In this document: piece after piece, positions 9,112 through 61,088 of the stretch | Layout: every line of letters starts with the position of its first letter | Numbering within the stretch: the stretch's first letter is position 1 | Source: Slackia heliotrinireducens DSM 20476 | GTDB lineage: Bacteria; Actinomycetota; Coriobacteriia; Coriobacteriales; Eggerthellaceae | Direction of reading: 5' to 3' | NCBI RefSeq assembly: GCF_000023885.1 | Contig: NC_013165.1 | Location: 248,001 to 312,000 of the forward strand | Length of the DNA: 64,000 nucleotides | Made by a program: the position numbers and the translations under genes | The notes under the pieces: model-generated | The model's input: the letters and a program-made list of their open reading frames with translations, nothing else | What the model was told of the DNA's origin: nothing | The model's database searches: none

Positions 9112-9199
9112 GGGCGGGACGACGGGGACGGAGGGTATTGTCCCTTCGTTGACGCGCGTCAACGAAGGGACAATACCCTCCGTCCCCGTCGTCCCGCCC
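9112..9199. repeat. 88-bp perfect palindrome
   Basis: Bases 9112-9155 are the exact reverse complement of 9156-9199, with the centre in GACGCGCGTC and no spacer. The arm contains GGGACAATACCCTCC and CGTCCCCGTCGTCCCG, related to the GGGACAA...TTGTCCC repeats listed elsewhere in this annotation. It lies 17 bp past the MATE stop, so it could act as a terminator-like hairpin. Confidence 0.95.
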
Positions 9200-28224: not shown

Positions 28225-28438
28225 GGCCTGCTCCTTTAGCCGAAAACCAGCTTCTGCGCCAAGAAAAACAAGTAGTGTACGACTGTTCGGACCCGCTCCG
28301 CTTCTATAAACAATCACCCACGCAGAGCCCCAGGTCAGACGCGTGTCGATATGACACGCGCGGCCCGTATTGTTGCGAAGTCGTACACCACTTGTTTTCT
28401 TGGCGGAAAAGGCCGTTTTCGGGCTGAGGAGCGGGGTG
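28225..28438. repeat. Inverted-repeat element 1 with central CCCAGGTC
   Basis: Arms of about 59 bases face each other: CGCCAAGAAAAACAAGTAGT (from 28257) with ACCACTTGTTTTCTTGGCGG (28386-28405), extended by GCTCCT..GCCGAAAAC and GTTTTCGGGCTGAGGAGC. Between them lie about 96 bases with a sub-palindrome (CGCGTGTC/GACACGCG). CCCAGGTC at 28329-28336 is within 2 bases of the exact centre. The same inner sequence recurs in opposite orientation in the element at 42144. No gene lies in 28102-28476. Confidence 0.85.
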
Positions 28439-30377: not shown

Positions 30378-30453
30378 GGAATGCGAAGCGTCCGGGGGTT
30401 TCGTGCAAACGCCTGGATTCGACCGACGCCAATGATTGTGCGCCAGCTGGAAT

Positions 30454-30505
30454 GTGTCCCCGCTGGCGCATTTTTGTGTCAAAAGGAAACGTCCCTACTG
30501 ACTCA
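30454..30505. repeat. Intergenic repeat family B copy
   Basis: TGTCCCCGCTGGCGCATTTTTGTGTCAAAAGGAAACGTCCCTACTGACTCA (read in two parts) lies between the convergent flavin reductase and YolD-like genes. Its end overlaps the stop codon of the latter. Confidence 0.7.
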
Positions 30506-32652: not shown

Positions 32653-32706
32653 CTCTGTGTCGCGCACTCCTTGGGGCGGGTTTGGCTTGCCGCCGCGCCC
32701 CGGGAC

Positions 32707-32759
32707 GTGTCCCCACTGGCGCAAAAATGAGCCAATCGGAAGCGTCCCTAGTGACTCAC
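32707..32759. repeat. Intergenic repeat family B copy
   Basis: TGTCCCCACTGGCGCAAAAATGAGCC then GGAAGCGTCCCTAGTGACTCAC, 55 bp past the LOG gene. Confidence 0.7.
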
Positions 32760-33780: not shown

Positions 33781-33786
33781 GTTGGT

Positions 33787-33959
33787 CGAATCGCCGATTT
33801 CTGCACGAGAACTCGAGTTGTGCATTCCGTTTTGCGGGTGCTGCGCGTTTTCAGGTTTTGAAAACGGCGTTTGCCCAGGTCGCGAAAACCGCTGCGAGCC
33901 CCTTTTGCCCAACGGGAATGCACAACTTCGAATCCGGAGCAGAAAACGGCGATTTCGCC
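33787..33959. repeat. Inverted-repeat element 2 with central CCCAGGTC
   Basis: The left arm (AATCGCCGATTTCTGCACGA, then CTCGAGTTGTGCATTCCG) is answered on the right by CGGGAATGCACAACTTCGAA and AGCAGAAAACGGCGATTTCG. Arms are about 50 bases, roughly three-quarters matching. CCCAGGTC at 33874-33881 sits at the centre (33873). The element at 60871 is its close relative. The gap 33655-34147 contains otherwise only the terminator and the short dnaX leader. Confidence 0.85.
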
Positions 33960-34147
33960 AACGCAGGTCGGGTTGCTTCAGGCCGCCCGCGATGTTTCGT
34001 GCGCACGGGGGGGGCGCTCCAAAGCGACGTCTTGCCCTTCTGGCGTCTCGAAAAAAGCAGGCCTAACGGTTTCGCATCGTTTTCAACCTCCGTGCCGCCC
34101 GTCTGCCGTAAGATAGGAGGGAGCACTTAGAGAGAAAGCGAGCGATC

Positions 34148-42069: not shown

Positions 42070-42100
42070 CGGGACAACGGGGACGGAGCCTTTTGTCCCG
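42070..42100. repeat. Palindromic repeat family A copy
   Basis: CGGGACAACGGGGACGGAGC then CTTTTGTCCCG; the outer 8 bases pair perfectly. The copy at 49001 is almost identical, including the sequence that follows. Confidence 0.75.
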
Positions 42101-42163
42101 TTTTCGGCGAGGCGGAGGCCAGGTGGGCGCAGCCTCACCGCATCCCGCCCCTCGGCCCGAAAA
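42101..42163. repeat. Mini inverted repeat with GGCCAGGT
   Basis: TTTTCGGCGAGGCGG pairs with CCGCCCCTCGGCCCGAAAA-type sequence. GGCCAGGT lies between, at 42117. The same module is present at 49031-49095. Its right arm doubles as the left outer arm of the larger element that follows. Confidence 0.65.
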
Positions 42164-42354
42164 CCTCCTTTTCCGCCAAGAAAATCAAGTAGTGCACGAC
42201 TTCGTGTCGATATGGGCCGCGCGTGTCATATCGACATGCGTCTGACCTGGGGATTCGCGAGGGCGCGCATATCCGGTATCGAAGCTGGGCCGAAAGGTCG
42301 TGCACTACTTGTTTTTCTTGACACAGAACCGGGTTTCGGGCTGGAGGAGCAGGT
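42144..42354. repeat. Inverted-repeat element 3 with central GACCTGGG
   Basis: The left arm contains CCGCCAAGAAAATCAAGTAG and TGCACGAC; the right arm contains GTCGTGCACTACTTGTTTTT and CTTGACAC. The inner segment GGGCCGCGCGTGTCATATCG, then TCTGACCTGGGG, matches element 1 (28225) in reverse orientation. GACCTGGG (reverse complement of CCCAGGTC) at 42244-42251 marks the centre (42249). The gap 42006-42441 holds only repeats. Confidence 0.87.
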
Positions 42355-42370
42355 TGAAAGAACGGGGAAG

Positions 42371-42421
42371 TGTCCCTGTTGACTCAAAAATGTGTCGGTA
42401 GGAAACGTCCCTACTGACACA
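42371..42421. repeat. Intergenic repeat family B copy
   Basis: TGTCCCTGTTGACTCAAAAA then TGTGTCGGTAGGAAACGTCC and CTACTGACACA, lying just before the convergent TorD gene. Confidence 0.75.
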
Positions 42422-49000: not shown

Positions 49001-49030
49001 AGGACAACGGGGACGGAGCCTTTTGTCCCG
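49001..49030. repeat. Palindromic repeat family A copy
   Basis: GGACAACGGGGACGGAGCCT then TTTGTCCCG, identical to the core of the copy at 42070. It follows the MocR stop by 20 bp. The whole stretch 48982-49341 contains only repeats and the next gene's leader. Confidence 0.75.
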
Positions 49031-49095
49031 TTTTCGGCGAGGCGGAGGCCAGGTTGGGCGCGCAACCTCGTCGCATCCCGCTCCTCAGCCCGAAA
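49031..49095. repeat. Mini inverted repeat with GGCCAGGTT
   Basis: TTTTCGGCGAGGCGGAGGCC, then an internal GGTTGGGCGCGCAACC hairpin, then CCCGCTCCTCAGCCCGAAA. It matches the left flank of element 3, but the large hairpin is missing: after CCCGAAA the sequence continues directly with the family B repeat. Confidence 0.7.
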
Positions 49096-49105
49096 GGACG
49101 GGAAG

Positions 49106-49156
49106 TGTCCCTGTTGACTCAAAAATGTGACAGAAGGAAACGTCCCTACTGACTCA
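49106..49156. repeat. Intergenic repeat family B copy
   Basis: TGTCCCTGTTGACTCAAAAA, TGTGACAGAAGGAAACGTCC, CTACTGACTCA; nearly the same as the copy at 42371. Confidence 0.75.
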
Positions 49157-50415: not shown

Positions 50416-50424
50416 CTTGCGCCA

Positions 50425-50477
50425 GTGTGTCAGTAGGGACGTTTCCTACTGACACAAAACTGCGCCACTGGGGACAC
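50425..50477. repeat. Intergenic repeat family B copy (inverted)
   Basis: GTGTGTCAGTAGGGACGTTT, CCTACTGACACAAAACTGCG, CCACTGGGGACACA; this copy contains a full local palindrome TGTCAGTAGG/CCTACTGACA. Confidence 0.75.
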
Positions 50478-50524
50478 ATCTTGCGGCGACTTCTCCATGT
50501 TAATACGCAATGGGGTAATGGGAA

Positions 50525-50554
50525 TGGGACAAGGAGGACTGTCCCCGTTGCCCC
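50525..50554. repeat. Degenerate palindromic repeat family A copy
   Basis: TGGGACAAGGAGGACTGTCC then CCGTTGCCCC; the right arm has decayed. Confidence 0.6.
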
Positions 50555-50574
50555 TTTCGAGCGATGGTCTGCAA

Positions 50575-50605
50575 TGGGACAAAGGGGACTGTCCCCTTTG
50601 TCCCA
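50575..50605. repeat. Palindromic repeat family A copy
   Basis: TGGGACAAAGGGGACTGTCC then CCTTTGTCCCA, the most symmetrical copy; together with flanking family B repeats it fills the gap between two convergent genes. Confidence 0.78.
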
Positions 50606-50641
50606 AAAATGAGTCAAAAGGAAGCGTCCCTACTGACACAC
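50604..50641. repeat. Partial intergenic repeat family B copy
   Basis: CAAAAATGAGTCAAAAGGAA then GCGTCCCTACTGACACAC, reaching the stop codon of the minus-strand gene. Confidence 0.68.
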
Positions 50642-51816
50642 TACAGGTCGGCGGCGGTAAAGGGGGTGACGGTCCCCAAGGTCCAGCCGTTGCCGATGAT
50701 GAAGCGGCCGTCGGCGCAGTCGAACAGCGAGATAGGGTCGGCCTGCGCAACGTTGAGACCCTCCATGCCGCTGCGACGGAACGCTGCCGAGTACACGCAG
50801 CGCATGGTGCCGCTGTTGGCGTCGGTGTAGCCCGACATGATGACCGTCTGGATGACCGGCGAGCCGTTGAACAGGGTCGGAAGCGCATACGTGCCGATGT
50901 TGAACAGGCAGCGCACCCATTCCTGGTTGAGCTGCTCCTCGGTTTTGTCCACCAGCGTGGCCTTGCCGTTGGCCAAAAGCACTGCGGTCTTGTTCGGCAG
51001 CAGCTCGCGGTCGGGCAATCCGACGGTGGCGTACATGAGCCCGCCGCCGAAGTCGTAGCTCACCGAGAACGGCAGACCGCAATCCATCAGCTTCAGCTTC
51101 AGCTCGATGGCGTCTTCCACCGTTTCGATATCGCCTTGGCGAAGCCGCTGGTAGAATGCCTGGCGATCGGCCCATTCCTGCTGCAGGCGAGCGTCTTCGG
51201 CAGCCTTCACGCGTGCCTGGTCGGCCAGATAGGCGGACTGGCGATAACTCCACGCCTGCTGCTCGGCGGCCAGCCGTGGCTCCAGGTTCGCCGCGACGTA
51301 CGCCTCGCGCTCGTCGCCCTTGAACAGCCCCGGATAGATGACCTTCGCCTCGTCGCGAATGAGCGGTACGAGCGTCTCGAAACTCGGCGCCGGCTCGGGG
51401 TAGGGCGGAATCACGTATTCGCCAGGCACGTCGTTGGCCTGCATCTGGTCGAAGGCTTGCGTGCTGAACACGGTTTCAGTGTCGGTGTGCACCATAAGCG
51501 CCGCAGCCGTTTTCTGGTTGTACGCGTTCGCGCGCTTCACCATGACGGTGCGGTACTCGGCGTCCAGCTTGGCGTTGATCCGCGGCCAGTCGACCTCGCG
51601 TTTCGCCATCTCGATGGACTGCCGGTCAAGCATTTCGAGCCGCCCGCGGTACACGTGCAGGTTCTTGTCCTCGTCCAGCGAGAAGCGGATGCCGTTCTTG
51701 CGTTTGCAGGCGACCTCGCCCAGCGGCGTGAAGCCGAACAGGCCCGTTTTGCGGGCGGTTTGCTCGAGTGTGTTTTGGACGCTGGTGTAGCTGCTTCCTA
51801 TATAGACGGTTTTCAC
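50641..51816 (-). CDS. Hypothetical cytosolic protein
   Basis: A 391-residue protein without signal or membrane segment and of no family I recognise. It opens VKTVYIGSSYTSVQNTLEQT; a charged helical stretch with several Ala/Gln/Arg repeats (LEPRLAAEQQAWSYRQSAYL, ARVKAAEDARLQQEW) lies in the middle. The C-terminal half contains hydrophobic strands such as VIQTVIMSGYTDANSGTMR. I set the start at the GTG at 51816 because AGGAGG stands 5 bases upstream; an ATG 18 codons earlier has no ribosome site. It stands alone. Confidence 0.7.
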   Translation of the reverse strand: MKTVYIGSSYTSVQNTLEQTARKTGLFGFTPLGEVACKRKNGIRFSLDEDKNLHVYRGRLEMLDRQSIEMAKREVDWPRINAKLDAEYRTVMVKRANAYNQKTAAALMVHTDTETVFSTQAFDQMQANDVPGEYVIPPYPEPAPSFETLVPLIRDEAKVIYPGLFKGDEREAYVAANLEPRLAAEQQAWSYRQSAYLADQARVKAAEDARLQQEWADRQAFYQRLRQGDIETVEDAIELKLKLMDCGLPFSVSYDFGGGLMYATVGLPDRELLPNKTAVLLANGKATLVDKTEEQLNQEWVRCLFNIGTYALPTLFNGSPVIQTVIMSGYTDANSGTMRCVYSAAFRRSGMEGLNVAQADPISLFDCADGRFIIGNGWTLGTVTPFTAADL

Positions 51817-54847: not shown

Positions 54848-55054
54848 GTGCAACGGGAATCCGAAAATCTGTGCACTTGAGGGGATAATCTGCCGAAAGC
54901 GGCCCCTCGAAGGCAGTTTTTCATGGGGTTGTCGCTGCTCCTCTCGACATAATCCCAGGTCGCGGAAATCGGACGATCCGTCCAAGGGCCGAAGAAGGGC
55001 CGAATCGCGCAGATTATCCCCTCAAGTGCGCACGAAATCGGATTCTCGTTGCAC
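54848..55054. repeat. Inverted-repeat element 4 with central CCCAGGTC
   Basis: The left arm 54848-54893 (GTGCAACGGGAATCCGAAAA, TGCACTTGAGGGGATAATCT) and right arm 55007-55054 (AGATTATCCCCTCAAGTGCG, ATCGGATTCTCGTTGCAC) are nearly exact inverse copies. CCCAGGTC at 54954-54961 is 3-10 bases from the centre. The right end meets the broken end of the LigB-type gene. Confidence 0.9.
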
Positions 55055-55439
55055 GGAGGAAGTACAGAGGGATGAACGTGGCGTGGTCCATGGGTGCGTT
55101 TCGCCATGCGCTGCCGTATACGGAGATGCTGGCATCGATGGCCGCGGCCTCAATGGCTTGCGCCAGCTGAACGTCGACGTTGCACTCAATGCGTTCGGGC
55201 GACCGGAACTGCCGCATGTTGCCTTCCAACCGCTCCATCTGGCAGATTGCGAACCCGTCGCGATATGCCGGCGCGTGCGGGCTGGATACGATGACCGTAT
55301 CGGGTGCAGTCTCGGCAATGTGGACTGCCACCTGGTGATATGCGTCGATGGTGCCCTGGATGCCCGCCTCTTGGCCGCATCCGACGGAAGGGATGATCAG
55401 CGGCGGGTGGGGCACGGCGTACGCTGCAACGATGGGCAT
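55014..55439 (-). pseudogene. Truncated AmmeMemoRadiSam/LigB-type extradiol dioxygenase gene
   Basis: The frame from the ATG at 55439 encodes the first 130 or so residues of a class III extradiol dioxygenase-like protein (MPIVAAYAVPHPPLIIPSVG, GTIDAYHQVAVHIAETAPDT, VIVSSPHAPAYRDGF). Family members are about 270 residues, often with an AMMECR1 domain behind. Homology ends at FIPLYFLR; the last dozen residues (ATRIRFRAHLRG) are encoded by the inverted-repeat element, whose edge is at 55054. The gene is therefore broken at the element. A decayed second copy lies at 58564. Confidence 0.8.
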
Positions 55440-58360: not shown

Positions 58361-58563
58361 ACGCCTGTGAAAAGCAGCATGGAAGCCAAGCTGACAATGC
58401 ATTATCCGGTCTTTTGCGGGGCTTGCTCTGACAGCAACTTGTTTCCGACCGCTCCTGCGCATAGGGTGTGCTATAAGGAGCGCCTAATCGGATTATGCGG
58501 ATTCCCCACACGAGAGGAGGCCCGAGTAGGAATCCCTTTCAGGTTCGAGGCTTTCCCAACAAG

Positions 58564-58710
58564 CTAGTTCTTTGGTGCGGTTTCGGCAATACAGGGTGTG
58601 ACTTGGCAATATATATCGACAGTGTCCTGGACGCCCTTCTTCTGGTCGCATCTGATGGAAGGAGGTATTAACGGTAGGAGGGAAGTGGCATGTACAGCAA
58701 CGATGAGCAT
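58564..58710 (-). pseudogene. Decayed second LigB-type fragment
   Basis: The minus-strand frame (MLIVAVHATSLLPLIPPSIR, GVQDTVDIYCQVTPCIAETA, PKN-stop) is a degenerate copy of the N-terminus of the truncated gene at 55439. The DNA also matches, for example GTCGCATCTGATGGAAGG versus GCCGCATCCGACGGAAGG. Only about 48 codons remain. Confidence 0.7.
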
Positions 58711-59160
58711 GACGGTCACCTGAGAAATGGTCGAGAATGGCATCGTAGCTCGAGTATGTCTTTTATTAAACGTGGATGCTTCGAGCGTTGGCTCGAAGCC
58801 ATGCGCGGCGGGTCCTTTTCTAGGCAAGTGTTTTGGGAGCTGCCTGTAACGTTGCAAATAGGTATCTCGGCAAGACATTGTCACTTGATGAGATGAGTAC
58901 CGACAATGTTGGTTAGTCATATAGCAAAAAACGTCAATAAACATAAGGCGCAGCGCCGCGAAACCAGGACCGTCGCGGGGCGCCGCGGCAAGCAGGGTAT
59001 TCGGCCTTGCGGCTTTGAGCCACATGTCCCAAACCCTCGCGCCCGAAGGCGGATGCAACCGAAAAACGCCTGTTTGATGCCATAATGAAGATAGGTATTG
59101 ACGCAATGAGAACAACATAATCAACGTGTCGTCGATGGCTCGATTCGTAGGGAGGTTGCT
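58711..59160. other. Gene-free stretch
   Basis: About 450 bp with no convincing coding frame, no terminator and no clear repeat; base composition is somewhat lower in GC than the neighbours. The leader of the following gene carries GGGAGGTTGCT. Confidence 0.5.
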
Positions 59161-60828: not shown

Positions 60829-60870
60829 TCGGTTTACTATCTGGCGTGAAGGCGGAACGTGCCTATTGCG

Positions 60871-61050
60871 TTGGCGAATTCCTCATTTTTTGCAGCAAAA
60901 CGCATGTTGTGCATTGTAAAAAGCCGACTTTCGCAGTTTGTCTTGCCTGACGCTTAACGTTTGGCCAGGTCGCGACTTCCAAAAAGCGTTCTAAATGCGG
61001 CTTCCCAATGCACAACTTCAAATCTGGTGCAAAAAGTCACCGATTTGCCG
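60871..61050. repeat. Inverted-repeat element 5 with near-central GCCAGGTC
   Basis: TTTTTTGCAGCAAAACGCAT, GTTGTGCATT on the left is answered by AATGCACAACTTCAAATCTG and GTGCAAAAAGTCACCGATTT on the right. GCCAGGTC at 60964-60971 is close to the centre (60960). It belongs with element 2 (33787): both carry GTTGTGCATT in the arm and CCAGGTCGCGA in the middle. The IS element begins about 40 bp later. Confidence 0.82.
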
Positions 61051-61088
61051 ACATTTATGCGGTATCTCGCATATGCAGGGGATCGCGT

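Follow-up and report, generated by a model that had tools for sequence, protein, structure and literature searches.

The palindromic element at positions 54848-55054 of the window, by which we mean the whole 64-kb stretch analysed (bases 248001-312000 of the single 3,165,038-bp contig of Slackia heliotrinireducens), terminates a truncated LigB-type gene at its very edge and belongs to a genome-wide family, F1, in which arms and core are held at distances that change by one helix turn. On balance, we favour the reading that it is a non-autonomous palindromic mobile repeat that inserted in the ligB-type gene, that the DNA on its far side was deleted, and that such repeats would be moved in trans by a phased complex.

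A LigB-type gene ends at the element edge

The truncated gene (55014-55439, minus strand) lies in an open reading frame spanning 55469 to 55014, and its true start is probably the ATG at 55439, which is preceded by AAGGAGG. Its LigB-homologous part (55055-55439, minus strand) matched positions 2-129 of the 269 of PF02900 only, leaving the frame with less than a full-length LigB catalytic domain, and a PDB search using the truncated protein gave no match. The element starts within codon 139, the R codon of FLR consisting of C55055 plus GT from the element, and codons 140-151 (ATRIRFRAHLRG) together with the TAA at 55016-55014 are element DNA. BLASTP against longer relatives gave 15 alignments, 8 of which finished at residue 138-139 and the others by 146, whereas alignments of the same relatives with the intact paralogue of this genome were mostly whole-length. 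The earlier note, which was made from the letters alone, had proposed that LigB homology runs to FLR and that the element then supplies the last 12 codons and the stop, with the element edge at 55054 and the loss of homology coinciding; the reading of the frame and the alignments confirmed both, the latter to the codon. Family members that naturally end at this point would have spoken against the proposal, and none was found: the open frames of LigB relatives in other genomes span 288-580 aa, mostly 460-540, and all those compared were longer than the fragment.

As the earlier note had suggested, the missing 3′ half was searched for across the genome, and none was found apart from that within the intact paralogue, one LigB-AMMECR1 protein at 1,964 kb that is 43-44% identical to the fragment. 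The surviving 5′ part keeps 139 open codons with coding-like usage, which indicates that it has not decayed for long and that the lost half went more likely by deletion than by slow decay. A second LigB N-terminal fragment, decayed and with an internal stop (58552-58725, minus strand, 58 aa), lies 3.1 kb away and is 47% identical to the truncated LigB; it calls for caution, because genes have disappeared from this region in the absence of an element, too.

The element belongs to a species-restricted family of facing arms around a core

The inverted repeat itself proved real, as the arms at 54848-54908 and 54994-55054 are 79% complementary over 61 nt and the foldback of the single strand surpasses that of dinucleotide shuffles by 9.3 sd (z -9.3). 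The 207-bp element, to which no strand is assigned, consists of a left arm, GTGCAACGG-n13-TGTGCACTTGAGGGGATAATCTGC (54848-54893, plus strand), a left spacer (54894-54953), the core motif CCCAGGTCGCG (54954-54964, plus strand), a right spacer (54965-55008), and a right arm that is the inverted copy, GTGCAACGA-n13-TGCGCACTTGAGGGGATAATCTGC (55009-55054, minus strand). It is the sole F1 copy within the window. Its numbering in the earlier note as the fourth of a group with the window's other palindromes was mistaken, since the arms differ and the families are separate.

Element BLAST followed by an arm model over the whole genome identified 34 paired F1 copies of 207-229 bp, with arms always facing. 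A miniature of 47 nt at 3046 kb and a half remnant at 607 kb were also found. The inverted arms are 46 bp long and bipartite, with a 9-bp outer part (GTGCAACGA), an unpaired middle of about 13 bases, and a 22-bp inner part (GnGCACTTnnGGGG(G)ATAATCnG), the arm consensus being GTGCAACGAGAATCCG..TGTGCACTTAAGGGGATAATCTGC. The inner stems match at 90% within a copy versus 74% between copies, and the middle segment shows no such within-copy gain (48% versus 51%). Most cores read TTACGCCACA-n13-TGTGGCGTAA, and the window copy and copy 612633 carry CCCAGGTC instead; the idea that the window core is merely degenerate was rejected, because 612633 has the same one. The placement of the copies is not random, since 32 of the 34 lie in non-coding DNA although 87.1% of the genome is coding (P about 1e-26).

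No F1 arm pair detected by the arm model in the genome encloses a gene. The family was absent from the 136 other genomes of the bacterial family that were searched, no exact match to the arm pattern was obtained in genome_contigs or viral_contigs, and searches of phages and plasmids revealed no F1 similarity. The genes flanking the copies are diverse, with no common neighbouring gene class and no orientation preference, so a regulatory role tied to gene class or orientation was rejected. An autonomous F1 parent was likewise rejected, the confident arms all pairing at 207-229 bp without any longer element.

Spacers keep their length in helical turns

The F1 spacers are near-random in sequence, with 30% ungapped identity versus 25% for shuffled sequences, and their length in almost every copy is 39, 48-50 or 59-60 nt, one being 54. 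Correspondingly, the half-lengths from end to centre are 107-108 in most copies and otherwise 97 or 118. From its left end to the core the window copy counts 106 nt, which falls short of copy 612633 by 10 nt, and the 94 nt between core and right end are the same in both, so that one side of the core is 10 bp shorter and the other unchanged. About four independent changes in core-to-arm distance could be counted, the number being this small because length variants share ancestry, and all were of 10 or 11 bp, that is, one helix turn. No local RNA structure was seen in the spacers, whose mean z values are -0.01 and -0.26, and this suggests that the constraint acts on the DNA. Rfam covariance models gave no match to the element up to E=1, and a known RNA identity was rejected on this ground and because the spacers fold no better than shuffles. 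The simplest reading of the spacing would be that proteins bound to the arms and to the core need a fixed face of the DNA. Free drift in sequence, combined with length changes of whole helix turns only, suggests a specific nucleoprotein complex; so unusual a spacing rule opens a particular mechanism to testing.

Other palindromes of the window

None of the remaining palindromes has F1 arms; they fall into different arm families. Two of these families, F2 (33781-33962 and 60870-61052) and F3 (28238-28425 and 42141-42356), share the CCCAGGT core (CCCAGGTC; core motif CCCAGGTCGCG) with the window element and copy 612633 despite their different arms. Genome-wide, F2 numbers roughly a dozen copies; nearly all measure exactly 182 bp, and the distance of the core from one end is 83 or 93 nt. 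It was not seen in the other genomes of the bacterial family. That one core recurs between arms of different kinds suggests an enzyme common to these elements, for which a search could be made.

The genome encodes three Y1 transposases (PF01797), two of which are RAYT-like (250 and 251 aa). Both RAYT-like genes are flanked by other repeats of the genome and not by F1 arms. The 251-aa gene (L179:1295-2329) is flanked, in inverted order, by TGTGTCAGTAGGGACG-type repeats, which occur in the window at 30449-30505, 32702-32758, 42365-42421, 49100-49156 and 50424-50642; given this inverse flanking, the TGTGTCAGTAGGGACG family of the window looks REP/REPIN-like. The 250-aa gene (L178:1280-2329) is flanked by GGGGACGGAGG..TTTGTCCC repeats, with window relatives at 9112-9199, 42072-42127 and 49002-49057, the one at 9112-9199 being a perfect 44-bp palindrome without spacer.

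F1 copies move as a unit and end a second gene

The earlier note had held that these elements move or cause deletions. Movement is upheld, mainly by evidence from outside the window, namely 34 dispersed copies and near-identical copies in unrelated flanks. Within the element, F1 copies 460544 and 464428 share 94% identity, with flanks at background identity, and the F2 pairs 77850/76370 and 281781/3046248 are 91% and 87% identical with flanks at background. Comparison of these sequences gives good support to the view that the elements move as a unit. Copies 453572 and 454673 sit in a segment of about 460 bp that was recently duplicated; they differ at 8 positions of the 13-nt core loop, most changes falling within or beside it and the remaining sequence being mostly identical. 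The favoured F1 junction is YC|G...C|GR. No convincing target-site duplication was detected, as k-mers adjacent to the copies resembled shuffled pairs, with one borderline value in 28 tests.

An incoming coding frame was found at only 2 of the 34 F1 copies, the LigB-type gene and a FabK/nitronate monooxygenase-like remnant (L036:4770-5243, at 2850 kb in the genome) that copy 2850505 ends at the exact element edge with the same TAA. Both frames stop 41 nt inside the element, the homology of both ends at its edge, and at both loci the remainder of the gene beyond the element is absent; the FabK-like remnant is also without its 5′ part. With the rest of the gene gone, insertion plus loss of adjacent DNA is, judged from these sequences, likely at both breakpoints, if not proven. 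The argument for deletion thereby rests on two independent loci, each lacking the distal gene part, instead of one, which lends support to this portion of the earlier claim, and the interpretation as a whole is partly supported. The two breakpoints offer concrete sites at which element-driven deletion could be tested.

Origin of the gene breakpoint

In the account that we favour, F1 would be a species-restricted family of non-autonomous mobile palindromes, moved in trans by a recombinase or transposase whose assembly takes place on double-stranded DNA. We infer that this mover has to hold the core and the two arms on the proper face of the helix, which under this proposal is why the spacers keep their length and not their sequence. 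The insertion would have occurred in an ancestor, at a CG step within a second, dispensable gene of the ligB type. Either in that event or through recombination later on at the edge of the element, the sequence past the far edge, with the C-terminal half of LigB, would have been deleted, and the element would then have supplied the last codons and the stop. Several points count against this account: no enzyme is linked to F1, target-site duplication is missing, the spacing steps may stem from no more than about four independent events, and covariation of the arms inside an element would be expected from a hairpin as well.

Two other histories of the breakpoint were considered. The gene may already have been a decaying pseudogene in which the element inserted by an existing breakpoint, the 3′ half being lost independently and nothing being deleted by the element. 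The decayed second LigB fragment 3.1 kb off fits this history, and so does the FabK-like remnant, whose missing 5′ part means that genes decay here without elements; we nevertheless consider it doubtful, as gene end and element edge agree to the codon at both of two independent loci, and the 139 open, coding-like codons of the 5′ part have not long decayed. Alternatively, homologous recombination between one copy in ligB and another downstream could have deleted the DNA between them and left a hybrid element. This course has a real, if minority, chance: the arms of the window copy are mismatched at a coupled position (TGTGC left, TGCGC right), which is unusual among its relatives, and copies 1-4 kb apart exist elsewhere in the genome; however, a single T-to-C change would also yield the mismatch, and the two parents leave no independent trace.

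Two further readings concern what the element is. Were the copies fixed chromosomal sites with a host function, such as DNA looping, nucleoid organisation or gyrase-type binding, the spacing would be kept for that function and mobility would be incidental; conserved length over diverging spacers, the helical-turn steps and the intergenic position of 32 of the 34 copies (P about 1e-26) would all agree with this, but the absence of F1 from all other species searched, the near-identical copies in new flanks, and the lack of shared neighbouring genes or orientation make it unlikely. That the element is a transcribed hairpin RNA, a terminator or small RNA now ending the gene, appears highly improbable. 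Strong pairing of the arms and covariation of inner-stem positions within elements are what such an RNA would show, but the arm middle is unpaired, the spacers are unstructured, neither an Rfam match nor an orientation preference was found, and steps of 10-11 bp suit double-stranded DNA.

Comparison with known systems

Small palindromic repeats are common in bacteria, and what joins their two ends during movement is usually unknown. REPINs are REP doublets moved by RAYT Y1 transposases (PMC3116915). F1 resembles them in being an inverted doublet that is extragenic and dispersed, with conserved ends around a variable, less conserved spacer of set length and without target duplication. It differs in its arms, which are 46 bp long and bipartite and are not imperfect palindromes with a GTAG or CGTC tag and a stem of their own, and in its central core and helical-turn spacing. 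The decisive test was the flanks of the RAYT-like genes, and these being formed by other repeats, F1 is not a REPIN. A RAYT partner was rejected for the same family, no F1 arms being found within the loci of the three PF01797 genes at E<=10.

Bacterial MITEs include ERIC and the Correia element with its internal IHF site (review PMC10969869). Like them, F1 is short, non-coding and intergenic, has terminal inverted repeats, occurs as a unit at unrelated sites, donates stop codons to genes, and possibly contains an internal protein-binding site. In contrast, it has neither target-site duplication nor an autonomous relative with the same ends, and is therefore not a canonical MITE, and the interiors of its copies are unrelated yet equal in length.

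In E. coli, BIME-1/RIB elements consist of two inverted REPs around an IHF site. Like them, F1 is palindromic and has a protein-site-like central core between inverted arms, but its sequences are different, it is about twice as long, and it carries no REP sequences. In a lambda-type attP, arm sites accompany a core of inverted half-sites around a variable middle, in helical phasing. F1 differs from attP in having dozens of dispersed copies with symmetric arms and in that no integrase or integrated element is known to be tied to it; it is like attP in combining arm sites with a core of inverted half-sites around a variable middle, in helical phase (half-lengths 97, 107-108 and 118) over roughly 200-240 bp. 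As a speculative extension that we regard as improbable, F1 with either of its cores (TTACGCCACA-n13-TGTGGCGTAA or CCCAGGTC), F2 and F3 could be substrates of one undescribed DNA-mobilising system, which would recognise the arms specific to each family together with the core that they have in common, all in strict helical register, as an integrase intasome does, and would make adjacent deletions. By analogy with the systems above, F1 may work like a MITE or a REPIN, both being small units with inverted repeats and no coding capacity that are moved in trans.
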